Positions 7,901 through 35,539 of a stretch of 35,915 nucleotides of DNA are shown one piece after another. This stretch comes from Aquabacter sp. L1I39 (GTDB taxonomy: Bacteria; Pseudomonadota; Alphaproteobacteria; Rhizobiales; Xanthobacteraceae): NCBI RefSeq assembly GCF_017742835.1, contig NZ_CP072392.1, positions 165,544 through 201,458 on the forward strand. The letters are read 5' to 3'. The notes under the pieces are model-generated. The model did no database searches. It worked only from the letters and a program-made list of their open reading frames with translations, and was not told the DNA's origin. The stretch's first letter is position 1, and each line of letters opens with the position of its first letter. The position numbers and the translations under genes were made by a program.

Positions 7901-8001
7901 CGGAATTCCGCGACGTCTGGACCATCCGCACCGAGTTTGCGGCGAAGGTTGAGGCGTGGCTGGATGAGGTGACGCGTGATGCTGGGGGAGCAGGACGGTG
8001 A
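4981..8001 (+). CDS. Type III-like restriction enzyme Res subunit (SF2 helicase plus PD-(D/E)xK nuclease)
   Basis: A 1006-residue ATP-dependent DNA translocase/endonuclease. Helicase motifs appear in order: Walker A ATGAGKTT (about 168-175), Walker B/DEAH in VVLNDEAHHCYRE (about 297-309), motif III LSATPF (about 358), motif V-like LTEGWDANTV (about 603) and motif VI EQVIGRALRR (about 627-636). The C-terminus carries a nuclease site, YRPDFIVRL (about 914-922) then VVEIKGARD (about 936-944), giving PD...ExK. Overall shape matches type III Res, which cleaves DNA between unmethylated sites using ATP, normally with a Mod subunit; that partner is two genes downstream. This is the first gene of a coupled operon: its TGA overlaps the next gene's GTG. 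No strong ribosome site precedes the ATG. An IS element and a phage scrap lie just upstream, typical of defence genes. Confidence 0.88.
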   Translation: MSDAFFQSPILNSPYEEPTRHWELDSAGQPTNQLIARRRPSALVSPIPKPKKVRGKAVQADLLADAMGQEYNPTEVINGVRSAVESWRRLPESQWNVTPSTARLLRHWRAFAFANQKPFFCQVEAVETVIWLTEVAPKSSSQGRRFWTHLEAANAASNPELMRMALKLATGAGKTTVMAMLIAWQTINAVRHPNARRFSRGFLVVAPGITIKDRLRVLQPNDPDSYYSTRQLVPEDMLPDMGRAKIVITNFHAFKKKDEVPLNKVQQAALKTKPREESDGSMIRRVAGALMGMKNIVVLNDEAHHCYRERPLTPEEQAALKGDELAEAKENNEAARLWISGLEAVKRELGIQMVYDLSATPFFLRGSGYREGSLFGWVMSDFSLMDAIECGIVKLPRVPIMDNVPGGDTPMFSNLWEYVGKSLPKKGRASAKGYDPQRLPNELLTAIDALYGHYAKTHALWRESGVEVDPVFIVVCNNTATSKLVHDYIAGYEVEDAHGNRTLVAGKCELFRNFDPDGVAIPRMRTLLIDSQQLESGEAIGPEFREAAKEEIQRFKDELIARHQDAQAGNQIDDATLLREVMNTVGRKGALGEGIRCVVSVSMLTEGWDANTVTHVLGVRAFGTQLLCEQVIGRALRRQSYQLQANGHFKVEYADVLGIPFDFTAQPVVSKPSPPDDMFRVFAVSPERDASEIRFPRVEGYRTELPQDVLRAEFSPDSTLELTPELVGATETINAGIIGEQADLTLDHLKDVRLPKIYFHLADWIVKRRLTEAGQQPSPRLIMQMKPIVRRWMAEHLVCSGGTQPAQLLYYGVADRVAERIMAALTRAQGEGSGVIALLDPYNREGTTRHVRFTTSKDRYETGPRCHINAAVIDSDWEAEFCRVADRHPRVLAWVKNHNLGFEVPYRAAGEVRRYRPDFIVRLDDGHGPDNPLNLVVEIKGARDEADKDKAETMRTLWVPGVNRLGFLGRWDYAEFRDVWTIRTEFAAKVEAWLDEVTRDAGGAGR

Positions 8002-19475: not shown

Positions 19476-20617
19476 AAGGTCTTTTTGTCGGGGCCCATGA
19501 GAGTGTCGGGGCCCATGAGATCGGCCCACACGGGCATGGCGATCGGAACGGCCAGGAAGCGCTCATTGAGCGCGCGCAGGGTTTGCCCCGGGTCGAGCGC
19601 CCGGCAGGCCTGCGGGTGCAGCCAGGCGGCGACGCGCTCCACGAACAGTCGGTTGAGGGGGCGAATGGCAACCAGCCCCGTCCACACGCCGGCGACCCGG
19701 TTTGCCTCCACCGCCGCCAACAGATCCAGCCCCGGCCGCGCCACCAGCTTGCGCAAGCCGGCGCGGGCTTCATCGAGCGGCAGGCCGGGCGCGATGGCCG
19801 GGCGCGTGCCGCGCGCGAATGCGCCGCCGGAGGCGATGTAGAGGTCCGGCTGCTCCACCACGAGCTGCTCCACATGGAGCTTCTGGAACCAGGGCGCTGT
19901 CACTGCATCCAGGCTGCGCCCGCCGGCCTGGGCCAGAAGCGCGCCCCAGACCTCCCGACCGGCGGCCCAGCAACATTCCTCATAGGTGGACTGGAGCTCG
20001 AGATAGACCTTTCGCTGGGGCTGCCCCGCGAGGCAGGCCTGCACTTGCGCCATGCCCGAGGCGATAAAGGCGATCAGCGCCTCGGCGCGCGCCTCCTCGC
20101 CCAGCACGCGTCCCCACATGCGCAGCAGTGCCGGCAGGTCGTCTCCGCCGCCGCGGCCGGCATTGCTGCTGGTGTCGCTGAACAGGACAGGAAGGCCCCA
20201 GGCGGACAACTGGGCCGAGACGTCTGCGTTCGCGCCCTCCACTTGCCGGGTGGTGACGATCAGGTCCGGCCTCAGTGCGATGATGGCTTCCGCCGAGATG
20301 CTGCCCGGCGCCATGCTGCCGAGGATGGGAACGTCCCGCCCGGCGGCCGCCTTGAGCGCGGCGAGGAGGGCGTCGCTGTCCAGCCCGTCGAGCCCCGCCC
20401 AGCCCGCCACCCGCTCCATGGGCGCGCGGACAAAAAGGGCCATGCTCACCGCATCACGGGCATCCAGGAGGACGATGCGCTCCGGCGCCCGCTTGAGGGC
20501 CACCGCGCGGCCGGCCATGTCGGTGACCGCGATCTCCGCCGCGCCCGTCCGCAGCAGGGGCAGGCCGGACAGGGCGCCGCCAAGCACCGCCCTGCGGGTG
20601 AGGCCGGCGCTCACCAT
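19472..20617 (-). CDS. Periplasmic iron-siderophore binding protein (FecB/FhuD type)
   Basis: 381 residues from ATG 20617, chosen because it overlaps the receptor stop by seven bases (ATGGTGA) and opens with a secretion signal; a longer frame reaching 20914 lies inside the receptor gene and is ignored. The N-terminus LTRRAVLGGALSGLPLLRTGAA carries twin arginines, suggesting Tat export, as for some FhuD-like proteins. The mature protein shows the class III binding-protein pattern: VTDMAGRAVALKRAPERIVLLD, then ISAEAIIALRPDLIVTTRQV and VEQPDLYIASGG. It delivers the ferric siderophore from the receptor to the permease. Family assignment is firm; ligand is unknown. Confidence 0.88.
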   Translation of the reverse strand: MVSAGLTRRAVLGGALSGLPLLRTGAAEIAVTDMAGRAVALKRAPERIVLLDARDAVSMALFVRAPMERVAGWAGLDGLDSDALLAALKAAAGRDVPILGSMAPGSISAEAIIALRPDLIVTTRQVEGANADVSAQLSAWGLPVLFSDTSSNAGRGGGDDLPALLRMWGRVLGEEARAEALIAFIASGMAQVQACLAGQPQRKVYLELQSTYEECCWAAGREVWGALLAQAGGRSLDAVTAPWFQKLHVEQLVVEQPDLYIASGGAFARGTRPAIAPGLPLDEARAGLRKLVARPGLDLLAAVEANRVAGVWTGLVAIRPLNRLFVERVAAWLHPQACRALDPGQTLRALNERFLAVPIAMPVWADLMGPDTLMGPDKKTL

Positions 20618-22761
20618 GTCTTGCGCAGGCCCGCCAGGAAGGTGCGGCCGGTGCCGTACTGGCAATAGATGTCGTAGGTGCAGCTTGTATAGTAGGTGGT
20701 GTCGAACAGGTTGCGGATATCGAGTGTCGCAGTTGCGCCCTGCATTTGACCGGAAAGCCGGGAAAGATCGTAGCGCAGCGACAGGTCCACCAGCGTGAAT
20801 CCGTCCACCTTGATGTCGTTGGTATCGTCGGCATAGCTCGGACCGATCATGCGCACGCCCGCCCCGGTGGTGAGGCCGGTCAAAGGCCCCTGCGTGAACT
20901 TGTAGTTGAGCCAAAGCGAGCCGAAATAGTTGGGCACCGCCTGAGGATGCTTGCCCACCGTGTCGGCAAGGTTGGATTTGGTGATCTCGGTATCGAGGAA
21001 AGTCAGGGCGCCGATCAGCTCCAGGGTGTCGGTGACATTGCCCCTCGCCTCGAACTCAAGGCCGCGTGAGCGGATCTCGCCCGTCTGGACGGAAAAGCCG
21101 AGGACCGGCCCGGGGGTGAGCACGTTCTCCTGCCGGATGTCGAAGGCGGCAACGGTAAAGAGGGCGTTCATGAAGGTGGGCTGGTACTTGAGGCCGACTT
21201 CCACCTGCTCCGCCTGTGTGGGCAGGAAGGCTTGGCCGGAGGCATCGACGCCGACCACCGGCTCGAACGATGTGGAATAGCTCGCATAAGGCGCAAGGCC
21301 ATTCTCGAACAGGTAAAGCAGCGCCGCCCGGTAGGTGGCCGCCGAGGCGGACTGGGTCGAGGTGGAATTGTTCGCGAGGTGGTTCTGCGTGGATTGCGAG
21401 GTCCAGTCCTGGCGCACGCCGAGCACCGCCCGCCAATTGCCAAGAGAGATTTGGTCCTGGAGATAGATCCCGGTCTGCTGCAGATCCTGCGTGTTGTCGA
21501 TGAGCGTCATGAAAGGGCCGACGCTCACCCCGTAGACCGGAAACATGACGTTGAGGCTCGGGGCGACGGCATATTGATAGGTCCAGTCGCTGGAGAACCA
21601 TTGATAGTCGAACCCGGCCACCACCTTGTGGCTCATTGGGCCGGTGGCGAAGGTGAACACCGCGCTATTGTCGGTGGCGACGCCGCCGGCTTGCTCGGTG
21701 GAGATCAGGGCCTGCCGGGGCAAGACGCCGTCCGACGTCATGGGTCCGGACATCTGGATGCCGCGCAGCTCGCTGGACACGTCCGAATAGCGGGTGTTGG
21801 AGCGGATCTGGAGCCACTCATTGACCCGATGCTCGAACGAATAGCCGATGCCCGCCTGCTCACGGCTATATTTGTCGAAGTCGGGGTCGCCCACATTGAA
21901 GGTGGGGCTCAGGAAGCTGCGATACTGTGGCGGCGACAGGAAGGTGGGATAGACGGAATTGAAGTATCCCCCGTCCGGATCGTTCTCATAGAAGGCGCGC
22001 ACGGTGAAGCGCGTGTCCGCATTGGGTTGCCAGGTGATGGCTGGCGCCACGCCGACGCGCGATTCCTTCACGTCCTCATACGGGGTGCCGGAAATGCGGC
22101 CGATGGCCGAGAGGCTGTATTGCCAGATGCCCTGCTCGTCGAAGGCGCCCTGGGTGGTCAGCCCCCCCTGCATGCGCCCGTAAGAGCCCACCTCCATGCG
22201 CATCTCGTTATAGGGCGTGGCGCTAGGGTCGCGGCTGACCATGTTGACGAGGCCCCCCGGGCTCACCTGGCCGTAAAGCACGGCGGAGGGGCCTTTCAGC
22301 ACGTCGATCCGCTCCAGCAGGAAGGGATCGATCTGGAACTGACCGAAGGCCTGTGCGCGGGGCAGCTTCAGCCCGTCGAGGAAGCCGACAAAGGTGCTGG
22401 CCGTGCCGAAGCCGCCGAAGCCGCGAATGAAGAGGCTGTCGAACCGCGTGTTGGCGTCCGGCATGAACACACCGGCCGTATATTCCATCGCATCCCCTAC
22501 GGTCTGCGGGTTCTGGTCGTCGAGTTGCTTGCGCGTGATGACATCCACCGACTGCGGCGTCTGGAGGATGGGCGTGTCAGTCTTTGTGGAGGCGGAATCA
22601 CGCCGGGCGACGATGGTCTCGTTGGACGCCCGCTCGCCGTCGCTCTCCACCACGATGGCATCGAGGGGAATGGCCGTCTGAGCCTGCGCCAAACCAGTAA
22701 TGAAACCAACAGAACTTATAGTCATTCCAAATAGAGCAATGTTCCTGCCGCGCTTTCGCAT
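20611..22761 (-). CDS. TonB-dependent siderophore receptor (FhuA/FpvA-like)
   Basis: 716 residues. A signal peptide (about 1-28, ending GLAQAQ) is followed by a plug domain: TPQSVDVITRKQLDDQNPQTVGDAMEYTAGV, FDSLFIRGFGG, then ERIDVLKGPSAVLYGQVSPGGLVNMVSRDP (about 170-200), the typical siderophore-receptor form (VLKGPSAVLYG). The barrel ends in YGTGRTFLAGLRKTW with the terminal aromatic residue. Length matches hydroxamate-type receptors. It is the first gene of the five-gene uptake operon and faces the TetR gene across a 210-base divergent promoter region containing a 22-bp palindrome. The ferric siderophore probably enters here and is handed to the FecB-type protein. Confidence 0.92.
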   Translation of the reverse strand: MRKRGRNIALFGMTISSVGFITGLAQAQTAIPLDAIVVESDGERASNETIVARRDSASTKTDTPILQTPQSVDVITRKQLDDQNPQTVGDAMEYTAGVFMPDANTRFDSLFIRGFGGFGTASTFVGFLDGLKLPRAQAFGQFQIDPFLLERIDVLKGPSAVLYGQVSPGGLVNMVSRDPSATPYNEMRMEVGSYGRMQGGLTTQGAFDEQGIWQYSLSAIGRISGTPYEDVKESRVGVAPAITWQPNADTRFTVRAFYENDPDGGYFNSVYPTFLSPPQYRSFLSPTFNVGDPDFDKYSREQAGIGYSFEHRVNEWLQIRSNTRYSDVSSELRGIQMSGPMTSDGVLPRQALISTEQAGGVATDNSAVFTFATGPMSHKVVAGFDYQWFSSDWTYQYAVAPSLNVMFPVYGVSVGPFMTLIDNTQDLQQTGIYLQDQISLGNWRAVLGVRQDWTSQSTQNHLANNSTSTQSASAATYRAALLYLFENGLAPYASYSTSFEPVVGVDASGQAFLPTQAEQVEVGLKYQPTFMNALFTVAAFDIRQENVLTPGPVLGFSVQTGEIRSRGLEFEARGNVTDTLELIGALTFLDTEITKSNLADTVGKHPQAVPNYFGSLWLNYKFTQGPLTGLTTGAGVRMIGPSYADDTNDIKVDGFTLVDLSLRYDLSRLSGQMQGATATLDIRNLFDTTYYTSCTYDIYCQYGTGRTFLAGLRKTW

Positions 22762-23880: not shown

Positions 23881-24762
23881 TCAAAGAGCGGCCGTTGAAC
23901 GCTTGGCCGCCTCACTGAGAATGGCGCGGAAAGCGCCCGCGGCCGTGTCCGGGTCGGGTTCCGGCGTGTTGCACTCCACCATGTAGGTGAGCTTGCCGAG
24001 CGGCGGCAGGCCAGCCTCCGGAGGGATTTCTTCGAGAACGGTCTTCTTGAAGCTCTGGCCGATGGCCATCACGCCGAGGCCGCAGCGCGCGGCAGCCAGT
24101 ATGCCCAAAAGGTTGCTGCATTCCCCCATATCGGTCCACGCCCGCCCGCTCGATGTGAGCGCCTCCTCGGCCAAGGCGCGGGTCAGGCTTGGCTTGATAT
24201 AGGAGACCAGAGGAACAGGGTCGGACGGCTTCAGCTGCAATGTCCTGTGCCCCAGCCAGACCAATTGCTCCTGCCACAGCGTCGCCCCTTCCGCGCCCCC
24301 GTGGCTCTTGCCCAGGATGACGTCCACTTCGTGGGACCGCAGCACGTCATGGAGATGCTCGTTGCGGCCGGTGATGAACTTCAGGCCGAAGTCGGGGAAT
24401 TGCGTGCGGAAAATGCCCAGCACTTCCGGCAGGCGCGTCCTGGCGAACTCGTCTTCTATGCCGACCCGGAGAATCCCCTTAATTCCCGGCCGCGCCAGCA
24501 GGCTTCGCGCCTCATTGGACAGCGCCAGGATAGACCGCGCATAGATCAACATCGCCTCCCCATCCGGTGTCAGGCTGACCTTGCGCGTGGTGCGAAACAC
24601 CAGCCGCCGGTTGAGGCGTTTTTCCAGGCGCGCAATCCGCTGGCTTACTGTTGATTGGGAAGCGCCCACCTCCACGGCCGCGAGACTGAAGCTTCGTTTC
24701 GTCGCCACGGCGTCAAATGCCCGCAACTCATCCGTATCGATGAGATTGCCCTGATCCCGCAT
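23881..24762 (-). CDS. LysR-family transcriptional regulator
   Basis: 293 residues from ATG 24762 (an alternative upstream start adds 19 residues with no family similarity). The N-terminal winged helix reads LIDTDELRAFDAVATKRSFSLAAVEVGASQSTVSQRIARLEKRLNRRLVFRTTRKVSLTPDGEAMLIYARSIL, a textbook LysR domain. The effector domain follows with GILRVGIEDEFARTRLPEVL and ILGKSHGG. It is divergent from the urease operon across about 650 bases. LysR proteins such as NAC control urease in enterics, so control of ureA is possible, but the distance is large and no clear T-N11-A box stood out. Confidence 0.9.
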   Translation of the reverse strand: MRDQGNLIDTDELRAFDAVATKRSFSLAAVEVGASQSTVSQRIARLEKRLNRRLVFRTTRKVSLTPDGEAMLIYARSILALSNEARSLLARPGIKGILRVGIEDEFARTRLPEVLGIFRTQFPDFGLKFITGRNEHLHDVLRSHEVDVILGKSHGGAEGATLWQEQLVWLGHRTLQLKPSDPVPLVSYIKPSLTRALAEEALTSSGRAWTDMGECSNLLGILAAARCGLGVMAIGQSFKKTVLEEIPPEAGLPPLGKLTYMVECNTPEPDPDTAAGAFRAILSEAAKRSTAAL

Positions 24763-25080
24763 GATTGCTGCCCAGCCTGCTGTTGCTCTTGCCCTTATGC
24801 CCGCGAGTGACGGGCACATCCAGGCATGCGATTGATTTCAGGGGATATATCTGGAAATCCGATTAATATAGCGCGCTACAAATGGAGCCCAAATCATAAC
24901 ACCTCATTCACCGTGCAAACAATACTTTGACTTAGAGCACAATCATCGCGCCCGACCTTCGATCATTAATTTGAATCAGTTGGAAGACTGGCGAAAACAA
25001 AACCGGACTTGCCACAGGGCTCGACGGCACACCCCCGGGAATGCGCGCATCGATAACTGGCCGCCTCTTTGTAACGCCGT

Positions 25081-25155
25081 CTACCGCGAGCTGGAACGTA
25101 GCGGAAGGTCGGCACAGGCGCAAATTTTCCGCGCGTCGACATAAGACGCGACCAT
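25081..25155 (-). CDS. Possible 24-residue leader peptide
   Basis: On the minus strand AGGAGGT (25159-25165) lies three bases before ATG 25155, giving a 24-residue frame that starts MVASYVDARKICACADLPLR and stops at TAG 25081. The ribosome site is the best in the window and the frame sits about 320 bases upstream of the LysR start on the same strand. The Cys-Ala-Cys run could stall or be sensed in a leader-peptide mechanism, but I recognise no family and short frames arise by chance. Confidence 0.3.
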   Translation of the reverse strand: MVASYVDARKICACADLPLRSSSR

Positions 25156-25244
25156 GATACCTCCTAATATTAACGCATATGTTCACGACAAACGAAACTA
25201 CAAATCAAACATAATAAATAAACTTCATTTATTCGATGCGGTTA

Positions 25245-25272
25245 TTGCACCGCTTAAGGTTCCGATTATTTA
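25245..25272 (+). promoter_or_regulatory. Candidate promoter of the urease operon
   Basis: TTGCAC (25245-25250), a 16-base spacer and TATTTA (25267-25272) lie about 150 bases before ureA. The -35 overlaps the GCGGT-TATTGC-ACCGC inverted repeat at 25238-25253, which could be an operator. This is pattern matching only. Confidence 0.3.
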
Positions 25273-25419
25273 TTCAGATTCCCAATAATTACTCACTTCG
25301 AGGCTGTTTTAGCTGGCGTGGCATTGGGGCTTTCTGTTACCAATAAGGCGATCTCGCAGATCGAGCCGGCAGCGCCCGCGCAGCATTGCCGAAGGTTCGC
25401 GCGCGTCGAGGATTCTCCC

Positions 25420-25722
25420 ATGCATTTCACGCCCCGAGAAATCGACAAGCTCCTCATCTACACGCTCGCCCAAGTGGCTCAGAGGCGTAAGGATCAGGGG
25501 CTGAAGCTCAACCATCCCGAGACGGTTTCCCTCATCTCCGTCGCTGCGCTTGACGGCGCCCGCGCGGGCAAGACCGTTGAAGAGGTTATGGAATTGGCCA
25601 GCAAGGCGATCACGCGCGACGACGTTATGGACGGCGTCGCCGAGATGATTCCCTACGTGCAGGTGGAGGCGGTGTTCACCGACGGAAGCCGGCTCGTCAC
25701 CGTACACGATCCCATCAAGTAA
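25420..25722 (+). CDS. ureA: Urease gamma subunit
   Basis: 100 residues, the standard gamma-subunit length, starting [20 protein letters not shown] with a GAGGA ribosome site seven bases upstream. Family signatures [21 protein letters not shown] and VEVMELA-type helices lead to [24 protein letters not shown] at the C-terminus. It is one of three structural subunits of nickel urease (urea to ammonia and carbamate). An open frame continues upstream to 25318 but those codons do not resemble UreA. Followed 21 bases later by ureB. Confidence 0.97.
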
Positions 25723-25743
25723 CCGGATGAGGGGCGTCGTCAG

Positions 25744-26154
25744 ATGAGCGATCAAAGCAAGAAAACTCCTGTGGGAGGACTTGTCCTTGGCAAGGGCGAC
25801 ATTGAATTCAATGCCGGCTATCCCACGACAACACTGAAAGTGCGCAATACCGGAGACCGGCCCATCCAGGTCGGTTCCCATTTCCACTTCTTTGAGGTGA
25901 ATGCCGCCCTGGCATTCGACCGGGAGCAGGCATTCGGCAAGCGGCTGAACATTCCCGCGACCACCGCTCTGCGCTTCGAGCCCGGCGACGAGAAAGAAGT
26001 GGTTCTCGTGCCCTATCAAGGAAAGCAGCGCGTTCTTGGCTTCAATGGCCTCGTCAATGGCTGGGTCGGCGACGAGAACTATGACGATTACCGTCCGCGC
26101 CTGACCGATGCACTGGAGCGCGCCAAGCGCTACGGGTTCAAAAGCAAGTCGTGA
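25744..26154 (+). CDS. ureB: Urease beta subunit
   Basis: 136 residues, somewhat longer than the usual 100-110 because of a C-terminal extension ([25 protein letters not shown]). The core is typical: [44 protein letters not shown] and [23 protein letters not shown]. The beta subunit packs on the active-site flap of UreC. It starts 21 bases after ureA and ends 33 bases before ureC. Confidence 0.97.
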
Positions 26155-26187
26155 TGGCCACCTTTATTCAGGCTGCGGAGCTCTGAG

Positions 26188-27906
26188 ATGCCAAAGATCT
26201 CGAGACAACAATATTCCGACCTTTTTGGACCCACGACGGGCGACAAGATCCGGCTCGGAGATACCGATCTTTATATCGAGATCGAGAAGGACTTGCGCGT
26301 CTACGGCGAAGAGGCCGTCTATGGTGGCGGCAAGACGCTGCGCGACGGCATGGGCTATGATAACGAGCTCACCAGCGCAGCGGGCGCGCCCGATCTCGTC
26401 ATCACCAATGTCACCATCCTCGACGCGGTCCAGGGTGTCATCAAGGCGGATGTGGGCATCAAGAACGGCCTGGTCTGCGCCATCGGCAAGGCCGGAAATC
26501 CCTCCACCATGTCCGGCGTCACGCCGGGCCTGGCACTCGGGCCCGGAACGGATGCCATTTCCGGTGAGCATCTCATCTTGACGGCGGGCGGCATCGACGC
26601 TCACGTTCACTATATCTCGCCCCAGCAGGCGCAGGCCGCGCTCTCCAACGGCGTCACCACCGTCTTTGGCGGCGGCATCGGACCGAGCGACGGCACCAAC
26701 GGCACCACCATCACGCCGGGCACCTGGAACATCGAAATGATGCTCCGCTCCTTCGATGCCTGGCCCGTCAATGCTGGCGTGCTCGGCAAGGGCAATGGCT
26801 CGGCGCCGGTGCCCATCGAGGAGCAGATCCGCGCCGGCGCCATGGGGCTGAAGATCCACGAGGATTGGGGCAGCACCCCGGCCGCCATCCGCAACGCCCT
26901 GACGGTGGCCGATAATTTCGACGTGCAGGTGTGCATCCACACCGACACGCTGAACGAGGCGGGCTTCGTGGAAAACACGATCGCCGCCTTCGAGGGACGC
27001 ACGATCCACACCTACCACACCGAGGGCGCCGGCGGCGGGCATGCGCCGGACATCATCCGGGTGGCGGGGCTGTACAACGTCATTCCCAGCTCCACCAATC
27101 CGACCTTGCCCTATGGGATCAACTCCCAGGCCGAATTGTTCGACATGACGATGATCTGTCACAATCTCAGCCCGAAGATCCCCACCGATGTCGCCTTCGC
27201 CGAGAGCCGCGTGCGCGCGGAGACTATCGCGGCGGAGAACGTGCTGCACGATCTCGGCGCCATCTCCATCCTGTCCAGCGACAGCCAGGCCATGGGGCGC
27301 ATCGGCGAGAACTGGACCCGCACCATCCAGACCGCCGACCTGATGAAGCAGCGGCGTGGCGCCTATGCGGGCGATCGCTCGGGCAATGACAATGAGCGCG
27401 TGCTGCGGTTCGTGGCGAAAGTCACCATCAACCCCGCCATCGCGCAGGGCGTGGCCCATGTGATCGGCTCGGTCGAGGTGGGCAAGATGGCCGACCTCGT
27501 CCTGTGGGAGCCTGCTTTCTTCGGAGCCAAGCCGAAGATGGTCATCAAGGGCGGCATGATCTCCTGGGCGCTGATGGGCGATCCCAACGCCTCCCTGCCC
27601 ACGCCCCAGCCGGTGATCTACCGGCCCATGTTCGGCGCCATGGGATCGGCTTTGCCCAAGACCCGCGTGACCTTCACCTCCCACGCCGCCTGCGAGGCGG
27701 GCATCGTGGAGCGCTACGAGCTGAAGTCGCAGGTGGTGCCGGTCTATGGCACGCGCACCATCACCAAGACCTCCATGGTGCGCAATACCGCCATGCCCGT
27801 CATCGAGGTGAACCCGGAAACCTTCGCCGTCACGGTGGATGGCACGCACGCCACCATCGAGCCGGCCACGCGCCTTCCGCTCGGCCAGCTCTATTTCTTC
27901 AGCTGA
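26188..27906 (+). CDS. ureC: Urease alpha (catalytic) subunit
   Basis: 572 residues, near the usual 566-570. Nickel ligands and catalytic residues are all found, five positions beyond the Klebsiella numbering: His139 and His141 (DAHVHY), the carbamylated Lys222 (GLKIHEDWG) with His224, His251 (IHTDT), His277 ([13 protein letters not shown]), flap Cys324-His325 (MICHNL) and Asp365 (SSDSQAMGR). Position 326 is Asn where the classic sequence is CHHL, a variant I recall in other non-enteric ureases. The enzyme should be active. The stop is followed 14 bases later by a perfect GC hairpin and then by the crcB pair. Confidence 0.98.
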
Positions 27907-27920
27907 GCCGGCAACGCAGT

Positions 27921-27940
27921 GGGGAGGGCGCGCCCTCCCC
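27921..27940. promoter_or_regulatory. Perfect 20-bp palindrome between ureC and crcB
   Basis: GGGGAGGGCG followed immediately by its own reverse complement, 14 bases after the ureC stop. No U-run follows, so full termination is unlikely. It could protect the ureABC mRNA from 3' exonucleases or lower expression of the downstream accessory genes. It does not look like a fluoride riboswitch. Confidence 0.5.
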
Positions 27941-27962
27941 ATCAACAGGGTGGCATTGTCCC

Positions 27963-28346
27963 ATGCACGCGATCGACATCCTGTGGGTTGGGCTCGGAGG
28001 CGGCATCGGCTCCCTGCTGCGCTGGCAGGTGGGACGGCTGGTGGAGCAGCGCTTCCGCACGTCCTTCAAGGTCGGCACCTTCCTGGTGAATGTCTCGGGC
28101 GCCTTCGTGATCGCCTACCTGTCCGCGTCGCTGGCGCTGGGCTGGGAGCATCGTTTTGGCGGCGTCATGTCGTCCAAGGTCCTGACCGGCGTGCTCGGCG
28201 GATACACCACCTTCAGCACTATGCAGCTGGATGCTGTGCAGATGGCTGGGGCGCGCCGACGGAGACTGGCCCTCGCCTATCTGGCGACGTCCGTGGGGGG
28301 AGGCCTCCTGGCCGCTGCCGCCGGCGTTGCCCTGGCGCGGGCATAG
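27963..28346 (+). CDS. crcB: Fluoride channel CrcB/Fluc family, first copy
   Basis: 127 residues with four hydrophobic helices. Hallmarks: GGGIGSLLRW (about 11-20), GTFLVNVSGAFV with the pore Asn (about 37-48), and GVLGGYTTFSTM (about 77-88). The second Phe of the fluoride-coordinating Phe pair (FSTF) is Met here. Positive charges cluster in the helix 1-2 loop (RWQVGRLVEQRFRTSFK) and the helix 3-4 loop (ARRRRL), implying those loops are cytoplasmic and both termini periplasmic. Fluc channels let fluoride leak out of the cell and work as antiparallel dimers. Lies 56 bases after ureC, with only a weak ribosome site. Forms a pair with the next gene. Confidence 0.9.
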   Translation: MHAIDILWVGLGGGIGSLLRWQVGRLVEQRFRTSFKVGTFLVNVSGAFVIAYLSASLALGWEHRFGGVMSSKVLTGVLGGYTTFSTMQLDAVQMAGARRRRLALAYLATSVGGGLLAAAAGVALARA

Positions 28347-28356
28347 GAGGCTGGCC

Positions 28357-28743
28357 ATGTCGCCACTGCCCGTCATCATCGTCTTCGTCGGGGGCGGCCT
28401 CGGCGCCATCGCCCGCGAGGGCGCCATCCTGCTTGTGGGGCGCTACAGCACGGCATTTCCCGTGGACATCTTCGCGGCGAATAGTCTCGCGTGTCTTCTG
28501 CTTGGCCTGATCTCGGGCCTGCACCAGAAGGGACGCGTGTCCGAGCATGTCACGCTTCTGATTTCCACAGGCTTTTGCGGCGGGATGTCGACCTTTTCGA
28601 CGTTCATTTTCGGAGCCTATTCTGAACTGAACACGCCGAGTCACGTGGCTCTGTCCGTCCTATACATCCTCTTCAGCCTTGTGGTCGGCTATTGCGCGAC
28701 TTTGACTGGCCTAACTCTGGCAACGAAAGTGCGTGGCACTTGA
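28357..28743 (+). CDS. crcB: Fluoride channel CrcB/Fluc family, second copy
   Basis: 128 residues; ribosome site TAGGAGG overlaps the stop of the first crcB, six bases before ATG. Four helices with GGGLGAIARE (about 12-21), AANSLACLLLG (pore Asn, about 40-50) and TGFCGGMSTFSTF (complete Phe pair, about 71-83). The helix 2-3 loop (HQKGRVSEH) and C-terminus (ATKVRGT) are positive while the helix 3-4 loop (YSELNTPSH) is not, implying termini inside, the opposite of the first copy. The two therefore look like the halves of a fixed-orientation heterodimer. Only 22 bases precede ureE, so it is part of the urease transcript. Confidence 0.9.
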   Translation: MSPLPVIIVFVGGGLGAIAREGAILLVGRYSTAFPVDIFAANSLACLLLGLISGLHQKGRVSEHVTLLISTGFCGGMSTFSTFIFGAYSELNTPSHVALSVLYILFSLVVGYCATLTGLTLATKVRGT

Positions 28744-28765
28744 GACAAGCGCCTGGGAGACTCAC

Positions 28766-29449
28766 ATGATCCTGGTCGAGACGACGCTCGGCAATCTTCG
28801 CGATCCGCTCTGGCAGGAGCGGTCGCGAAACGCAAAGGTGGATCCGCTCACCCTGGAGCAGTGGGAAGCGCCCAAGAACCGGCTGCGCAAGGAGAGTGAG
28901 GGCGGCATCGAGCTGGCCATCTCGCTGCCGCGCTCCCAGCACCTGCATGACGGCGACGTGCTGCATTTCGACGAAGCCGCAGGGGTTATCGTCGTCGCCC
29001 GTGTGGCCTTGAAGGATGTGCTCGTTATCGAGCTGGAAGGCATCGAGAAGCTCTCGCCGGCGGAAATCGTGCGCACCTGCTTCGAGCTCGGCCATGGGCT
29101 CGGCAACCAGCATTGGCCGGCGGTCATCAAGGGTTCAACCGTCTATGTGCCGCTGTCCGTGGACCAGAAGGTCATGGCCTCGGTCATGCGCACCCATGCG
29201 TTCGAGCATGTGAAGACGCGCTTTGCACCCGGCGAGGAGATCGCCGCCAAGCTCGATGCCCGCGAGGTGCGCCTGCTCTTCGCCGGGGCCGACGCCACGC
29301 CGCATCATCATCACGGAAATGGGGCGCATGGACATGATCATGCCCATACCGACGGCCACGGTCATTCCCACGCGCATGACCACCCTCACGATCATCACCA
29401 CGACCACAGCCACCCGCACGACCACGCCAACGCGGTGGTGAAGCCATGA
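28766..29449 (+). CDS. ureE: Urease accessory protein UreE (nickel metallochaperone) with His-rich tail
   Basis: 227 residues from ATG 28766 (TGGGAGA ribosome site); an in-frame start 11 codons earlier overlaps crcB and is less likely. The N-terminal domain reads RSRNAKVDPLTLEQWEAPKNRLRKES, and the metal-binding domain contains CFELGHGLGNQHWPAVI with the conserved dimer-interface His motif. The last about 48 residues hold 21 histidines (HHHHGNGAHGHDHAH and so on), a nickel-storing tail like that of Klebsiella UreE. UreE passes nickel to UreG. Its TGA overlaps ureF as ATGA. Confidence 0.95.
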   Translation: MILVETTLGNLRDPLWQERSRNAKVDPLTLEQWEAPKNRLRKESEGGIELAISLPRSQHLHDGDVLHFDEAAGVIVVARVALKDVLVIELEGIEKLSPAEIVRTCFELGHGLGNQHWPAVIKGSTVYVPLSVDQKVMASVMRTHAFEHVKTRFAPGEEIAAKLDAREVRLLFAGADATPHHHHGNGAHGHDHAHTDGHGHSHAHDHPHDHHHDHSHPHDHANAVVKP

Positions 29450-30168
29450 CGGAGGCCGGCAGGACGGGGGGCACGAGCCCCTCCGGCATGGTGCATCTGG
29501 CGCGCCTGCTGCAATTCTCGGATTCCACGCTGCCGATCGGTTCCTTCGCCTTCTCCAACGGCTTGGAATCCGCGCTGCAGACGGGCGTGGTCACCGATCC
29601 GGAGAGCCTGCTTGCCTATGTGGACCTGATCCTGCGGCAGACGGCGCGGATGGACGGCATCGCGCTCCTCCATGCCCACCGCGCCGCGCGGGCGGGCGAC
29701 TATGAGGCCATTCTCGTGGCCGACAGCGAGCTGTTCTGCCGCCGCGTGGGCGAAGAGCAGCAGATGATGCTGACCCGCGTCGGCAAGAAGCTCGCCGAGC
29801 TGGTGCTGAAGATCATGCCTTCGCCGCTTCTGGCGCGGTGGCTGGAGGACATCAGGGCCGGCGCCACGCCGGGCTGCCTGCCGGTCGGCCAGGCCATCGC
29901 CCTCGCTCACATGGAGGTGGACGAGGCGGAGGCCTTCGTCATGCACCAATATGGCGTCGCCTCCATGATCCTGAGCGCGGCGCTGCGCCTGATGCGCATC
30001 GACCATCTGGACACCCAGCGCATCCTCTTCACCGCACAAAGCCGGGTCGATGGCGACTACCAGGCGGTGCGCGACCTCTCGCTCGATGAGATGGCGTCCT
30101 TCGCCCCCGTCTTCGACGTCCTCGTCGCCCATCACACCACCACCCATGTCCGCCTGTTCATGAACTGA
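29446..30168 (+). CDS. ureF: Urease accessory protein UreF
   Basis: 240 residues, all-helical. Family marks: LLQFSDSTLPIGSFAFSNGLESALQTGVV near residues 21-50, and the C-terminal LDEMASFAPVFDVLVAHHTTTHVRLFMN. UreF bridges UreD and UreG in the apo-urease activation complex and controls GTP hydrolysis by UreG. Start overlaps the ureE stop by four bases, so the two are translationally coupled. A hydrophilic N-terminal extension of about 15 residues (Gly/Thr/Ser-rich) is present. Confidence 0.95.
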   Translation: MTEAGRTGGTSPSGMVHLARLLQFSDSTLPIGSFAFSNGLESALQTGVVTDPESLLAYVDLILRQTARMDGIALLHAHRAARAGDYEAILVADSELFCRRVGEEQQMMLTRVGKKLAELVLKIMPSPLLARWLEDIRAGATPGCLPVGQAIALAHMEVDEAEAFVMHQYGVASMILSAALRLMRIDHLDTQRILFTAQSRVDGDYQAVRDLSLDEMASFAPVFDVLVAHHTTTHVRLFMN

Positions 30169-30195
30169 GCGCGGCACGGGCGAGGGAGGCAATCC

Positions 30196-30843
30196 ATGAA
30201 GAAAATCACCCGCATCGGCATTGGTGGTCCCGTCGGATCGGGCAAGACCGCCGTCATCGAAACCATCACGCCACGGCTGATCGACCTCGGCATCAAGCCG
30301 CTCATCATCACCAATGACGTGGTGACCACGGAGGATGCCAAGCAGGTCCGCCGCACCCTCAACGGCATCCTGGTGGAAGAGAAGATCGTGGGCGTCGAGA
30401 CCGGCGCCTGCCCCCACACGGCCGTGCGCGAAGACCCCTCCATGAACATCGCCGCGGTGGAGGAGCTGGAAGAGAAATACCCCGACAGCGACGTGATCCT
30501 GATCGAGTCCGGCGGCGACAACCTGACCTTGACCTTCAGCCCCGCTTTGGCGGACTTCTACATCTATGTGATCGACGTGGCGGCGGGCGACAAGATCCCG
30601 CGCAAGAACGGGGCGGGCGTCTGCCAGTCGGACATCCTCGTCATCAACAAGAAGGACCTCGCCCCCTATGTGGGCGCGAGCCTTGAGGTGATGGACCGCG
30701 ACTCGAGGCTGATGCGCGGCAAGAAGCCGTTCCTCTTCACCAATTGCAAGACGGGCGAGGGCATTGACGACCTCATCCGCCTTATCCTCGACATGGCGTT
30801 GTTCGACGTGAAGACCACGCCTGCGACGAGCGCGGTGGCCTGA
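30196..30843 (+). CDS. ureG: Urease accessory GTPase UreG
   Basis: 215 residues, standard length. P-loop [13 protein letters not shown] (about 9-21), the nickel-binding Cys-Pro-His of [13 protein letters not shown] (about 74-86), [16 protein letters not shown] and the guanine-specificity region [11 protein letters not shown]. It is a SIMIBI-class GTPase that delivers nickel to apo-urease. A GAGGGAGG site lies 7-8 bases before ATG. Followed after four bases by ureD. Confidence 0.97.
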
Positions 30844-30847
30844 CGCC

Positions 30848-31783
30848 ATGGCGCTCCACGCGCAACTCGGCCTCCTTGATGCGGCGCGCGAAGTCCGGGA
30901 CTTCCAGGACGAGCCGGCGCAGATGCGCGCGGCTGCGCCGGGCAAGGTCGGCGAGCTGCGCCTTGGCTTTGGCATGCGCGGCGGCCGGTCCGTCCTGCAT
31001 GACCTCTACCGGGTGGCGCCCCTGCTGGTGCAGCGGGCACTCTACTGGGACGAGGCCATGCCGGACCTGCCCATCTGCTCCATCATCTCGGTGGGCGGCG
31101 GCATCCTGCAGGGCGACCGCTACAAGATCGACATCTGCGTGGGCGAAGAGGCATGCGCCCATGTGACCACCCAGAGCGCCAACCGCATCCACCTGATGGA
31201 TGCCAATTATGCCTCCCAGCACCAGACCCTCACGCTCGAAGCCGGCGCCTATCTGGAATATCTGCCCGACTTCACCATCCCCTACCGGGATTCCCGCTTC
31301 ATCAACCAGACCGACATCGTCATCGCTGAGGACGCCACGCTCCTTTATGGCGAGATGGTTCTGGCCGGGCGCAAGCATCATCACGAGAGCGAGCGGTTCG
31401 GCCTCGACCTGCTCTCGGTGGCCGTCGCGGTGCGCCGGCCGGGCGGGCGCAAGCTGTTCGCGGAAAAGATCCTGATCGAGAAGGGCGATGGGTCGGTGGA
31501 CCTGCCGGCGGTCATGCGCGGCTACGACGCCTTCGCGAACATCCTCTGCCTCACTCCGCCCCCCATCGCTGCCCGCATCAAGGGGCGGTTCGGCACCCAT
31601 TTCCCGGCCGAGGCGCCCCGCGCCATTTCCGGCGTGTCCCGCCTGCCGAATGACGCCGGCCTGATGCTGCGCGCGGTGGGCATGGAGACCTACGACGTGC
31701 GCCGCGAGGTGCGCCGCTTCTGGCAGATCGTCCGCGAGGAAGCCCGCGGCCAGACCCTGCCGCAGGACTTCCTCTGGCGTTGA
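30848..31783 (+). CDS. ureD: Urease accessory protein UreD (UreH)
   Basis: 311 residues, slightly long because of an N-terminal extension of about 35 residues. Family marks: GGRSVLHDLYRVAPLLVQRALYWDE, SVGGGILQGDRYKIDICVGEEACAHVTTQSANRIHLMD, LEYLPDFTIPYRDSRFINQTDI, and MVLAGRKHHHESERF. UreD scaffolds the UreDFG complex and channels nickel to UreC. It comes at the end of the accessory genes, as in Yersinia and in the Brucella ure-2 cluster, and not at the front as in Klebsiella. Confidence 0.95.
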   Translation: MALHAQLGLLDAAREVRDFQDEPAQMRAAAPGKVGELRLGFGMRGGRSVLHDLYRVAPLLVQRALYWDEAMPDLPICSIISVGGGILQGDRYKIDICVGEEACAHVTTQSANRIHLMDANYASQHQTLTLEAGAYLEYLPDFTIPYRDSRFINQTDIVIAEDATLLYGEMVLAGRKHHHESERFGLDLLSVAVAVRRPGGRKLFAEKILIEKGDGSVDLPAVMRGYDAFANILCLTPPPIAARIKGRFGTHFPAEAPRAISGVSRLPNDAGLMLRAVGMETYDVRREVRRFWQIVREEARGQTLPQDFLWR

Positions 31784-31798
31784 CCAAGGACCGCAGCC

Positions 31799-32812
31799 AT
31801 GGCCGCACATAAAAACAACTTCCTGATCGAAGCCCTGAAGGGAACGAGCCAGGTCTTCTTCATGGAGAACCCGATCACGGGGGCCCTGTTCTTCGTCGCG
31901 ATGGCCTATGCCTCCTATGCGTCCGGCAACTGGACCACCACCATCGGAGCGGCGCTCGGTGTTTGTGTCGCCACCCTGACGGCTCGGCTGCTGGATTGCG
32001 ACGAGCCATCGGTGGCCGCCGGCCTGTTCGGCTTCAACGGCGTCCTGGTGGGCGCGGCGCTGCCGACCTTCATTGCCGCCGCTCCGCAGCTTTGGGCCTA
32101 TGTGATCGTGGGCGCCGCGGCGAGCACCGTCATCACCGCCGCCTGCAGCGCGACACTCACCGCCAAGTGGGGCATTCCCGGCTCCACCGGCCCCTTCGTG
32201 CTGACCGGCTGGCTGATGGTCGCCGGGGCCTATTCCTTCGGCGGCCTTCATGTCACCGGCGACGCGCCGAAGCTGGCCACCGACTATGTGCAGGGCGTCG
32301 TCTTCCTGCCCCAGCCGATGGAACTGGTTCAGATCTTCTTTTGCAATATCGGCCAGGTCTATCTGCTGGGAAACGAGATTTCCGGCGCCATCATCCTGCT
32401 CGGGATCTTCATCGCCTCCGTTCCCGCCGGCATCGCCGCCGCCGCCGGCTCTCTGGTCGCCATGGCGGTCGCCATCGGCATGGGGGCGGATCCAGCTGTG
32501 GTCAGCCAGGGTCTCTATGGCTTCAGCCCCGTGCTCACGGCGCTGGCGGTGGGCGTCATCTTCCTGAAGCCGTCGCCAAGGGTGACGCTCTATGCACTGC
32601 TGGCCACCATCACCACCGTCTTCGTGCAGGGCGCCCTGGACGTGATCGTCGCCCCCTCCGGCATTCCCTCGTTCACCGCGCCCTATGTCCTGACCATGTA
32701 TCTGTTCATCGCGCCGAAGAAGCTCATGGCGCCCCACCCCCACCAGCCGGTGGAGGGCCACATGATCGGACACGACCATCCCACATCGGCCCCGACTCGC
32801 ACGGCGGCCTGA
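31799..32812 (+). CDS. Urea transporter (UT family, Yut/UreT-like)
   Basis: 337 residues, inner-membrane channel-like urea transporter. It shows the duplicated UT architecture: first half ending LLDCDEPSVAAGLFGFNGVLVGAALPTF (about 60-90), second half repeating it as GADPAVVSQGLYGFSPVLTALAVGVIF (about 228-256). About ten hydrophobic helices. The last 30 residues are His-rich (HPHQPVEGHMIGHDHP), perhaps metal-binding. It starts 15 bases after ureD. Supplies urea for the enzyme upstream. Family assignment is confident. Confidence 0.92.
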   Translation: MAAHKNNFLIEALKGTSQVFFMENPITGALFFVAMAYASYASGNWTTTIGAALGVCVATLTARLLDCDEPSVAAGLFGFNGVLVGAALPTFIAAAPQLWAYVIVGAAASTVITAACSATLTAKWGIPGSTGPFVLTGWLMVAGAYSFGGLHVTGDAPKLATDYVQGVVFLPQPMELVQIFFCNIGQVYLLGNEISGAIILLGIFIASVPAGIAAAAGSLVAMAVAIGMGADPAVVSQGLYGFSPVLTALAVGVIFLKPSPRVTLYALLATITTVFVQGALDVIVAPSGIPSFTAPYVLTMYLFIAPKKLMAPHPHQPVEGHMIGHDHPTSAPTRTAA

Positions 32813-32935: not shown

Positions 32936-34177
32936 ATGCAAGCCATCAATGCAGGCGATACCGCCTTCATCCTCCTGTGTACCGCCCTGGTGTGCATGAT
33001 GACCCCGGCTCTGGCGCTGTTCTATGGCGGCCTCGTCAAGCAGCGGGACATGATCTCGATCATGATCCAGAACTTCGTCTGTATGGGCGTTGTCGGCCTG
33101 ATCTGGGTGTTCGGCGGCTTCAGCCTGGCGTTCGGCCCGGACATGGGTGGCGTCATCGGCAATATCGCGCCCTATTTCGGCATGTACCATGTGGGCATTC
33201 AGCCCAACCCCGCCTATGGGCCGAACATCCCGTTCATCATGGTCTTCGCCTACCAGATGATGTTCGCCATCATCACACCGGCCTTGATGACCGGTGCCTT
33301 TGTCGGGCGTTTCCGCTTCGGGGCCTATCTCTTCTTCATCGCGCTGTGGACCATCCTGGTCTATCTGCCAGCTGCCCATTGGATCTGGGGCGGCGGCTTC
33401 CTCGCCAAGCTGGGCGTCGTGGACTTTGCCGGCGGCATCGTCATCCACACCGCCGCCGGCTTCTCCGCCCTGGTGACGGCGGCCTATCTCGGCAAGCGCA
33501 AGCTCGCGCCGGGCGAGAGCGAGTCGGAGCCCGCCAGCCTGCCTTTGGTGGCGCTGGGCGCCGGCCTTCTGTGGTTCGGCTGGTTCGGCTTCAATGCGGG
33601 CGGCGCCTATGCGGCGGATGCGCTGGCTGCCTATGCCTTCACCAACACCATGCTGGCGGGCTCCATCGCCATGCTCGTTTGGATGTTCTGGGAATGGCGC
33701 GAGAACGGGCGTCCTTCCTTCTCGGGGGTCCTGGTGGGCGCGGTGGCCGGCCTTGCCACCATCACCCCGGCCTCGGGCTATGTGGAACCCATGTCCGCCC
33801 TTCTGATCGGGGCCGTGGGCGCGACGGTGTGCTACCATGCCAAGCATGTCCAGGCTTGGCTCAAGATCGACGATTCCCTTGAGGTCTGGCGGGCGCATGG
33901 CGTCGGCGGCCTGACCGGAGCGCTGCTCATCGGCGTGCTGGCCAGTTCTCACATCAACCAGGTGTCGGCTGGTCTTCACCAGCTGGGCGTGCAGGTTCTG
34001 GCCGTGGTTCTCGTCGCCGCCTATGCCAGTCTCGTCACCTTCGTCCTGCTGAAGATCCTCGACGGGCTCGGCATCCTGCGGGTGTCCGAAACGATCCAGG
34101 TGGAAGGCCTCGACACCCCGCTCTACGGCGAGCGGGCCATCAATTTCTGGAACATGGATCGCGGCAATCCCAAGTGA
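32936..34177 (+). CDS. Ammonium transporter (Amt family)
   Basis: 413 residues, eleven-helix inner-membrane Amt. The N-terminus (NAGDTAFILLCTALVCMMTPALALFYGGLV) is the first helix of the mature form, without a separate signal. Pore hallmarks: His171 in GGIVIHTAAGFSALV and His321 in WRAHGVGGLTGALLIG are the twin histidines; Phe gate positions lie in QMMFAIITPAL and LWFGWFGFNAGGAYAAD. The C-terminal tail carries DGLGILRVSETIQVEGLDTPLYGE, close to the conserved cytosolic tail contacted by GlnK. No glnK gene is adjacent, which is unusual. Position after the urea transporter suggests recapture of ammonium released from urea. Confidence 0.94.
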   Translation: MQAINAGDTAFILLCTALVCMMTPALALFYGGLVKQRDMISIMIQNFVCMGVVGLIWVFGGFSLAFGPDMGGVIGNIAPYFGMYHVGIQPNPAYGPNIPFIMVFAYQMMFAIITPALMTGAFVGRFRFGAYLFFIALWTILVYLPAAHWIWGGGFLAKLGVVDFAGGIVIHTAAGFSALVTAAYLGKRKLAPGESESEPASLPLVALGAGLLWFGWFGFNAGGAYAADALAAYAFTNTMLAGSIAMLVWMFWEWRENGRPSFSGVLVGAVAGLATITPASGYVEPMSALLIGAVGATVCYHAKHVQAWLKIDDSLEVWRAHGVGGLTGALLIGVLASSHINQVSAGLHQLGVQVLAVVLVAAYASLVTFVLLKILDGLGILRVSETIQVEGLDTPLYGERAINFWNMDRGNPK

Positions 34178-34297: not shown

Positions 34298-35539
34298 ATG
34301 GACGTGACGCTCGCCATCTTCATCCTGGTCTATGTGGCCATGGGCGTCGGCCATCTGCCGGGTTTCCGGCTGGACCGGACGGGCGCCGCCACGGTAGGGG
34401 CGATGGTGCTCATCGCAGCCGGCCAGATTTCGCCGGCCGCGGCCTGGGACGCGGTGGATTATCGCGTCATCGGCTTGCTGTTCGGCCTCATGACGGTTTC
34501 CGCAGCCTTCGCAGTGGCCGGCTTCTATGACTTCGTCGCCGGAAAAATCGGCGGACTGAATGTCGGACCCAAGGGGCTTCTGGCCATCCTGATCGCTGTG
34601 TCCGGTGTGATGGCCGCGCTCTTGAACAAGGATGTCGTCGCGGTGGCGATGACGCCCATCTTCTGCGCCATATGCATCGCGCGCCGGCTCAACCCGCTAC
34701 CCTTCCTGCTCGGCCTGTGCTTCGCCGCCAATTTCGCCTCGGCGGCAACCCTCCTCGGCAGCCCGCAGAACATGATCGTCGCGGAGACGCTGCAGCTCTC
34801 CTTCCTGGGCTTCATGGCGGCCGCGGCCCCGCCAGCCGTGCTCAGCCTGCCGGTGGTGTGGAGCGTGATCGCGCTATGCTATCGAGGCCGATGGGCACTG
34901 ACAGACACGGCGCAGCCCCCAGCGGTTCCGCAGGCCGCCTTCATCCCTGCTCCCCTTGATCGCGTCGAGGCGCTGAAAGCGGGGCTGGTGGCAGTGGCCG
35001 TGGTCTCGGCCTTCATCTTCACCGACGTGCCGCACATGCTGATCGCGCTGGCGGGCGCGAGCGTTCTCCTGGTCAGCCGGCGGATGGAGTCGAAAAGCCT
35101 CCTGCATCACGTGGACGGCGACCTATTGGTGCTGCTGTTCGGCCTGTTCGTGGTTAATGCCGCGCTCACGGCCACTGGGCTGCCCGAGCAGGTCCTCGCC
35201 GGCCTGCGCAGCATTGGGGTCGACCTACACGACCCACAGTCCATGCTCATCGCCATGGCGGTGCTCAGCAACATCGTAGGCAACAATCCGGCGGTGATGC
35301 TCGCGGCACCGTTCATCGGCGGCACTTCCCATCCGGAGGCGCTCGGTGCGGCCATTGCGCTCGGCACGGGCTTTTCTTCCAGCGCAGTGATCTTCGGCAG
35401 CCTGGTCGGCATCATCGTGGCCGAGGAATGCCGCAAGCGGGGCATCGCGCTCTCCTTCGCGGAGTTCGCGCGCGCCGGCGTTCCGGCCTCCCTCCTCTGC
35501 CTGCTGATGGCCGCAGCTTGGATCCACCATCTGGGCTAG
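34298..35539 (+). CDS. ArsB/NhaD-superfamily (SLC13-like) permease
   Basis: 413 residues from ATG 34298, which has a CAGGAGGGG ribosome site; the frame is open 26 codons further but those are not hydrophobic and overlap nothing conserved. About 11-12 helices with an internal repeat typical of the ion-transporter superfamily: GVMAALLNKDVVAVAMTPIF in the first half and VLSNIVGNNPAVMLAAPFIGG in the second. These match ArsB/NhaD/SLC13 permeases for arsenite, sodium or organic/inorganic anions. Substrate cannot be told. Its TAG stop is the first three bases of the palindromic repeat at 35537-35653. Probably the last gene of the urease transcript. Confidence 0.85.
   Translation: MDVTLAIFILVYVAMGVGHLPGFRLDRTGAATVGAMVLIAAGQISPAAAWDAVDYRVIGLLFGLMTVSAAFAVAGFYDFVAGKIGGLNVGPKGLLAILIAVSGVMAALLNKDVVAVAMTPIFCAICIARRLNPLPFLLGLCFAANFASAATLLGSPQNMIVAETLQLSFLGFMAAAAPPAVLSLPVVWSVIALCYRGRWALTDTAQPPAVPQAAFIPAPLDRVEALKAGLVAVAVVSAFIFTDVPHMLIALAGASVLLVSRRMESKSLLHHVDGDLLVLLFGLFVVNAALTATGLPEQVLAGLRSIGVDLHDPQSMLIAMAVLSNIVGNNPAVMLAAPFIGGTSHPEALGAAIALGTGFSSSAVIFGSLVGIIVAEECRKRGIALSFAEFARAGVPASLLCLLMAAAWIHHLG

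Follow-up and report, generated by a model that had tools for sequence, protein, structure and literature searches.

A distinct two-gene pair of the CrcB/Fluc fluoride-channel family is associated, genuinely and recurrently, with an acid-type urease. The pair lies inside the urease cluster of the window, by which we mean the whole 35,915-nucleotide stretch of the Aquabacter sp. L1I39 genome analysed here, and its relatives accompany the same type of urease in other genomes in several different arrangements. We assign a probability of roughly one half to the reading that the two genes encode a heteromeric Fluc-family channel, which would provide an exit path for F- in the service of the acid-type urease module.

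Results

A crcB pair within a urease cluster

The genes of the cluster follow one another on the + strand in the order ureA-ureB-ureC-crcB1-crcB2-ureE-ureF-ureG-ureD, after which come genes for a UT-family urea transporter, an ammonium transporter and an SLC13-type permease. The features, numbered from the first nucleotide of the window, are:

23881..24819, - strand: LysR-type regulator (Pfam), upstream of the cluster and a possible regulator of it
25420..25722, + strand: ureA, gamma subunit (Pfam Urease_gamma); ATG start chosen, GTG at 25318 in the ORF list
25744..26154, + strand: ureB, beta subunit (Pfam Urease_beta)
26188..27906, + strand: ureC, alpha subunit (Pfam), carrying Phe at -7 and Asn at +1 relative to the presumed catalytic His
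27919..27942, + strand: GC-rich stem-loop of 10 bp in the gap between ureC and crcB1
27963..28346, + strand: crcB1 (ATG start), Fluc-family subunit of 127 aa (Pfam CRCB)
28357..28743, + strand: crcB2, Fluc-family subunit of 128 aa (Pfam CRCB)
28766..29449, + strand: ureE, nickel accessory protein with a His-rich tail; ATG start chosen, GTG at 28733 in the ORF list
29446..30168, + strand: ureF
30196..30843, + strand: ureG
30848..31783, + strand: ureD
31799..32812, + strand: urea transporter of the UT family (Pfam UT)
32936..34177, + strand: ammonium transporter (Pfam Ammonium_transp)
34310..35539, + strand: SLC13/CitMHS-type permease (Pfam CitMHS), start codon uncertain

The original prediction placed two crcB genes between ureC and ureE with operon-type spacing, and this is what the window contains: the gaps measure 56 bp (ureC-crcB1), 10 bp (crcB1-crcB2) and 22 bp (crcB2-ureE), with all genes on the + strand. 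A simple scan of positions 24800-31900 found no terminator-like site on the + strand, the two sites it did find both being on the - strand. The ureE product matches Pfam UreE_N above the cut-off and UreE_C slightly under it. Compared by eye, the LysR-type protein looks similar to the one encoded ahead of the cluster in Ancylobacter loci, and an SLC13/CitMHS-type permease is a neighbour in 19 of 84 clustered loci.

Control of the crcB genes by a fluoride riboswitch was considered and rejected, since none was found at gathering score in the window or in nine further loci (L001, L002 and seven related ones). The stem-loop at 27919-27942 was likewise rejected as a crcB element. Stem-loops 3' of ureC, changed in sequence, recur in many relatives, several of which have ureE directly next, and the stem-loop therefore probably belongs to the ureC 3' end, where it may stabilise the ureABC portion of the message; compared with shuffled sequence, this stretch is no more stable than chance (z -0.93). 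On the - strand, antisense to ureC, positions 26338-26634 match the Rfam 5' ureB small RNA (RF02514, 57 bits); the same antisense match occurs in six related loci scanned and may merely mirror conserved coding sequence. Further upstream, a ResIII-domain protein and a DNA methylase are encoded close together at 4981-11755, with integrase-core genes at 130-792 and 3817-4623, likely a restriction-type island near the urease cluster, and a siderophore-interacting protein together with a long ORF resembling by eye a TonB-type receptor (18363-22761) suggests an iron-uptake cluster.

Two unlike subunits of the Fluc family

Both proteins belong to the CrcB/Fluc family. They match Pfam CRCB with 77.2 (CrcB1) and 75.3 bits (CrcB2) against a cut-off of 32.9, all 16 sequence matches of each to solved structures are CrcB/Fluc or FEX chains, and the top 31 fold-search matches of each predicted model are Fluc chains. 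The CrcB2 model (pLDDT 79.3) aligns to Fluc chains with TM scores of about 0.79-0.84; the CrcB1 model is weaker (pLDDT 69.5, TM about 0.74-0.78, E 0.001-0.06). The genome, a single contig of 5.39 Mb, has four CRCB genes in all, the other two carrying the standard Phe box; a congener genome has two, together with a single strong urease-alpha match.

The two genes stood next to each other in all 80 loci examined in a scan of relatives (the best 80 of 235), and their products differ in a consistent manner. The Lys/Arg bias of the loops is opposite: positive in 115 of 120 CrcB1 sequences, with five at zero and none negative (mean +2.32), and negative in 60 of 60 CrcB2 sequences (mean -3.0). In the published La1/La2 heteromer, either subunit alone is inactive and loop charges served as evidence (PMC3755343; this and the other papers are cited from excerpts). 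Because of the opposite charge bias and the unlike pore changes described below, crcB1 and crcB2 more likely encode the dissimilar halves of a single channel than a channel each, and the idea of two independent channels is disfavoured on the same grounds. Hence, of the original description as paired fluoride channels, the pair and its CRCB/Fluc family membership stand, and the plural is better replaced by two subunits of a single channel.

Both predicted pores depart from model channels

The CrcB1 and CrcB2 rows were aligned to parts of Fluc-Ec2 and Bpe, and residues are given in Ec2 numbering. Among the 120 CrcB1 sequences listed, of 2879 matches, the departures are Met at F83 (119/120), Asp at E86 (120/120), Gly at S110 (120/120) and Ala at T114 (113/120), while T37 (118/120), N41 (119/120) and F80 (120/120) are kept; CrcB1 of the window retains the GTxxxN and YxxxS motifs. 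For CrcB2, counted over the window's protein and the first 59 of 111 matches with the 52 more distant ones excluded, F80, F83 and N41 are each kept in 60 of 60 sequences, and the departures are Ile at T37 (57/60), Gly at E86 (60/60) and Gly at S110 (60/60), with Thr (38/60) or Ala (20/60) at T114. The YxxxS track is kept in all or nearly all sequences counted for either protein.

Residues were assigned to pores with the layout borrowed from FEX (PMC5417652; motifs ooFooX/ooXooF), one sentence of which reverses the order of the Phe residues. On this layout, the predicted CrcB1-lined pore would combine Met83 of CrcB1 with F80 of CrcB2, and the predicted CrcB2-lined pore would have both Phe residues without Thr37 and Glu86. 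The full pore set of the model channels (both central Phe, the TM2 Thr/Asn, the TM3 Glu and the TM4 track) is complete in neither predicted pore: the CrcB1-lined one has Met for F83, Asp for Glu86, Gly for S110 and mostly Ala for T114, and the CrcB2-lined one Ile for Thr37, Gly for Glu86 and Gly for S110. In Fluc-Ec2, F83M and T114A are inactive and F80M and S110A active, and in La and Sa heterodimers Met or Leu replaces one central Phe (PMC5636608); for FEX, the reported cost is 120-fold for the corresponding Thr change, 88-fold for the Glu change and 1.4-fold for F330A alone (PMC5417652). Both predicted pores thus depart from working model channels, and the pore chemistry may have changed. 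We infer that the working pore is the CrcB1-lined one, since the Met it bears is almost constant and a non-functional pore would be expected to drift. The Ec2 data argue against this assignment.

The partner urease is predicted to be of the acid type

In ureases with acidic optima, a Phe seven residues ahead of the catalytic site and an Asn directly after it have been reported (PMC2806259), and UreC of the window has both, F(-7) and N(+1). A survey of UreC residues covered 86 rows in which the motif was found, some overlapping in the same genomes, of which 83 share at least 66% identity with the window's UreC and are referred to here as the clade. Within it, 80 rows have F/N, two F/H and one Y/H. 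Outside it, all three canonical rows have L/H, among them the second, canonical urease that the Aquabacter genome encodes at about 2.11 Mb. From these residues the partner urease would be of the acid type, the relation between residues and pH optimum being a published correlation. F/N also occurs in clade-urease genomes without CrcB1, so the residues alone do not predict the pair.

The neighbours of the cluster in relatives fit acid stress: HdeA-family genes lie near it in Yersinia and Methylorubrum loci, and others encode FUSC proteins, a CLC protein and a K+-channel-like Ion_trans_2/TrkA_N protein. In Yersinia, Pseudomonas and Providencia, this last protein (cluster c10, 27 loci) is encoded next to the UT gene and the crcB pair, with its gene between the two in L059, L073, L036 and others.

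The pair recurs near the same urease clade

One genome per species was scanned with a 17-row CrcB1 alignment and two peptide patterns, one of which contains the Met, so that the scan is biased to this CrcB1 subfamily; it returned 235 relatives, of which the best 80 were examined. A locus was called linked when at least one urease gene was found in the stretch examined (tblastn, E up to 1e-3). The organisms belong to the Alpha-, Beta- and Gammaproteobacteria. Urease genes lie near the pair in 58 of these 80 loci, in four arrangements: the pair is placed between ureC and ureE in 21, on the opposite strand in 28, and on the same strand downstream in five and upstream in four. The predicted gene order is therefore found in 21 of 80 loci, and also on a Roseomonas marmotae plasmid, where ureC-crcB-crcB is followed by a protein at the UreE position; a metagenome-assembled Laribacter genome (L057) reads ureC-crcB-crcB-ureE. 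That the pair might be unique to one strain is rejected by the same scan (80/80 paired, 58/80 linked). The original prediction also put the crcB genes on a single transcript with urease, which agrees with the operon spacing in the window and does not extend to a general rule, given the 28 of 58 linked loci with the pair on the opposite strand.

Where no urease gene was near, the same type of urease was often present elsewhere: in genome searches, 15 of the 22 unlinked genomes had a UreC with 69% or more identity to that of the window. Clade urease was not found in the genomes of seven of the 80 loci (L080, L097, L098, L110 and L116-L118), the CrcB1 of L116-L118 being the most divergent (37-43% identity). 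CrcB1-type genes in genomes without clade urease were noted in L110 (Shewanella) and G696. On a Providencia rettgeri plasmid, the pair follows an SLC13 permease and the first crcB gene appears shortened. CrcB was absent from the stretch examined of two plasmid urease clusters of the same type, in Escherichia albertii and Microvirga.

The association was also assessed in samples drawn without regard to CrcB, each centred on a genome picked for having the pair. With the centres included, the order of the window's genome comprises 249 genomes, eight with clade UreC, five with the CrcB1 type and five with both (four adjacent); the order of the Morganella genome 197, with five, four and two; and the family of the Pseudomonas genome 91, with two, one and one. 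CrcB1 E-value limits were 1e-30 in the window's order and 1e-22 in the other two. Excluding the three centres, the pooled 534 genomes contain 12 with clade urease, seven with CrcB1 and five with both, and clade urease is present in 4/4 CrcB1 genomes of the window's order, 1/3 of the Morganella order and 0/0 of the Pseudomonas family. The hypergeometric p-values, also without centres, are 4.6e-8 pooled, 2.3e-7 for the window's order and 0.06 for the Morganella order, and serve as guides, the genomes being related and several of them also in the CrcB1 scan. Taken alone, the Morganella order shows a weak association, and the link is incomplete overall: seven of the 12 clade-urease genomes are without CrcB1 and two of the seven CrcB1 genomes without urease. 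Across 385 genomes sampled from the whole class, a CrcB1 match above 80 bits, or a UreC above 62% identity, was seen in the window's genome alone. As a control, none of 68 other CRCB matches in 61 genomes (our own included) lay within 50 kb of a urease-alpha match on the same contig, as read by eye and limited by the many draft genomes; in G026 a weak amidohydrolase-like match lies about 99 kb from a CRCB gene. The assumption that every low-scoring urease-alpha match among relatives belonged to the same clade was dropped after further UreC searches.

The pair has moved relative to the urease genes

On a UreC tree of 76 rows, the observed arrangements require at least 16 changes over all states and at least six among linked states. 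The tree was made by a quick method with 21 of 71 inner branches weak; L003, L004, L119-L121, L141 and L143 were excluded as duplicates (L121 and L141 not strictly), incomplete UreC rows were also excluded, and two rows are without label. Given at least six changes among linked arrangements, the pair has moved and yet remained, or returned, near the same urease type. Over 62 loci, distances between CrcB1 and UreC correlate with r 0.60, compared with 0.96 for UreG and UreC; the pair is therefore not locked to the urease genes, and strict co-evolution of CrcB1 with UreC is only partly supported. A Kaistia genome (K. terrae) has the operon-internal pair disrupted in three forward frames (L130, 10780-11400) and a second pair standing elsewhere (L054, 9971-10700).

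Discussion

Inhibition of urease by fluoride, on which the original prediction relied, is documented: in one test, 1 mM NaF inhibited urease by 100% both in K. pneumoniae cells and in the jack bean preparation, and lower NaF partly inhibited the plant enzyme and left K. pneumoniae unaffected (PMC7244745). Fluoride is also among the inhibitors of acid urease in wine (PMC11353287). Acid is the element that the original prediction lacked, as the partner urease has acid-optimum residues. Acid raises fluoride sensitivity, since HF enters the cell and F- is trapped along the pH gradient, accumulating 100-fold at pH 5 outside and 7 inside (PMC11077948). Because HF enters acid-exposed cells and F- is trapped there, an exit path for F- would suit an acid urease. 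In the mechanism that we propose, the products of crcB1 and crcB2 would assemble, in opposite orientations, into a single heteromeric Fluc-family channel, expressed with a module made up of ureABC-EFGD, the urea transporter and the ammonium transporter. In acid surroundings, external fluoride would enter as HF; urease activity, by keeping the cytoplasm less acid, would trap F- there, where it would bind the dinickel site of urease. The channel would let F- out down the membrane potential, so that urease and other fluoride-sensitive enzymes could stay active during the acid response. Such protection is plausible.

Several observations count against an F- channel with this role. F83M and T114A are inactive in Ec2, and CrcB1 has Met83 and, in 113 of 120 sequences, Ala114; the CrcB2-lined predicted pore lacks the Thr and Glu found to be important in yeast FEX; two other CRCB genes of the same genome carry the standard Phe box; no fluoride riboswitch reached the gathering score in the window or the nine further loci; and the link to the urease is incomplete. 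In Y. pseudotuberculosis, the ure genes and a crcB gene whose locus number is close to theirs responded to different conditions (PMC12607645), so that co-regulation is unsupported there, and Brucella abortus draws its structural urease from ure1 and not from the yut-type ure2 cluster (PMC2868824). A related formulation, which we regard as tentative and clearly less probable than the F- exit path, is that the pair represents a functionally distinct, heteromeric Fluc subfamily and a working part of acid urease systems, in which a near-invariant Met replaces Phe at the ion, or the ion is not F-, and which was selected because acid-driven urease activity traps that ion.

The pair might instead protect the whole cell from HF with no special role for urease, being grouped with urease, HdeA, CLC, FUSC exporters and the K+-channel-like protein in an island whose members all serve acid survival. 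The HdeA, FUSC, CLC and Ion_trans_2/TrkA_N neighbours in relatives speak for this, as do the 28 opposite-strand arrangements among 58 linked loci and the 15 of 22 unlinked genomes that carry pair and urease separately. We consider it somewhat unlikely, since in 21 of 80 loci, spread over several orders, the pair sits exactly between the ureC and ureE genes, a tighter placement than an island needs, and it tracks one urease clade whereas HdeA or CLC occurs in some loci only. It is more unlikely still that the linkage is functionally meaningless, with the pair carried along by chance on mobile urease islands. The cluster is patchy and occurs on plasmids, the CrcB1/UreC correlation (0.60) falls below that of UreG and UreC (0.96), and the operon-internal pair of the Kaistia genome is disrupted, all of which speak for chance carriage; yet linkage was kept or regained over at least six arrangement changes, the same urease type accompanies the pair even when unlinked, and that Kaistia genome keeps its second pair. 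We rate such hitchhiking as very improbable.

Between these two in probability, and in our view improbable, stands a Fluc-derived pair that passes another small ion for the acid urease, for example an anion balancing urea and ammonium traffic, or F- by a different chemistry. The near-invariant Met83, Asp86, Gly110 and Ala114 of CrcB1 and Ile37 and Gly86 of CrcB2 favour it, as does the presence of two standard CRCB genes in the same genome. We know of no Fluc with a physiological ion other than F-, which counts against it, and N41, F80 and the YxxxS track are retained with few or no exceptions. The loss of transport in Ec2 F83M and T114A points towards such a change, but La and Sa heterodimers also have Met or Leu at one central Phe (PMC5636608).

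With La1/La2 of Lactobacillus acidophilus and Sa1/Sa2 of S. aureus, a heteromeric F- channel of the kind proposed here would share two CRCB genes, the Fluc fold, opposite charge bias, the TM2 Asn and the change of one of four central Phe residues, as reported there. It differs from them, compared by published description, in the near-invariant Met83/Asp86 and Ile37/Gly86 and in its association with an acid-type urease. The asymmetric halves also resemble the single-barrelled FEX exporters of eukaryotes, and the FxxM pattern of CrcB1 recurs in yeast Fex1p, in its N-terminal half (SSFSSMxxE; PMC5417652). Unlike the FEX fusion, the window's pair consists of two genes, and its loss of Phe and losses of Thr and Glu fall in different predicted pores, whereas in FEX they fall in one.

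The order of the ure genes and the UT-family transporter are shared with the ureABCEFGD-yut clusters of Yersinia, Morganella and Brucella (ure2). Acidic pH optima have been reported for the Yersinia and Morganella ureases (PMC2806259), and Brucella ure2 carries a nickel transporter (PMC2868824); the main texts of these two papers contain no mention of crcB or fluoride. In contrast to those clusters, the operon in the window encloses the pair and is followed by genes for an ammonium transporter and an SLC13 permease. For Laribacter hongkongensis, which has a urease cassette, two crcB genes (LHK_01038/01039) are listed whose best matches come from Brucella and Yersinia; they are filed under camphor resistance, with no link to urease drawn in the excerpted text (PMC3125207). 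In excerpts of the Morganella genome paper, crcB is placed in the flagellar region, in agreement with the flagellin-like neighbours of L063-L065 and L077. Among titles and abstract openings of the open-licence literature, we found no description of a crcB pair with urease, an absence that is weak evidence.

Fluoride channels are usually seen as general detoxifiers. Here, a distinct two-gene form accompanies one type of enzyme in several proteobacterial orders, which suggests a physiological reason, the acid-driven trapping of fluoride, that is directly testable. Furthermore, these natural Met-pore relatives may be useful for studying why F83M fails in Fluc-Ec2.
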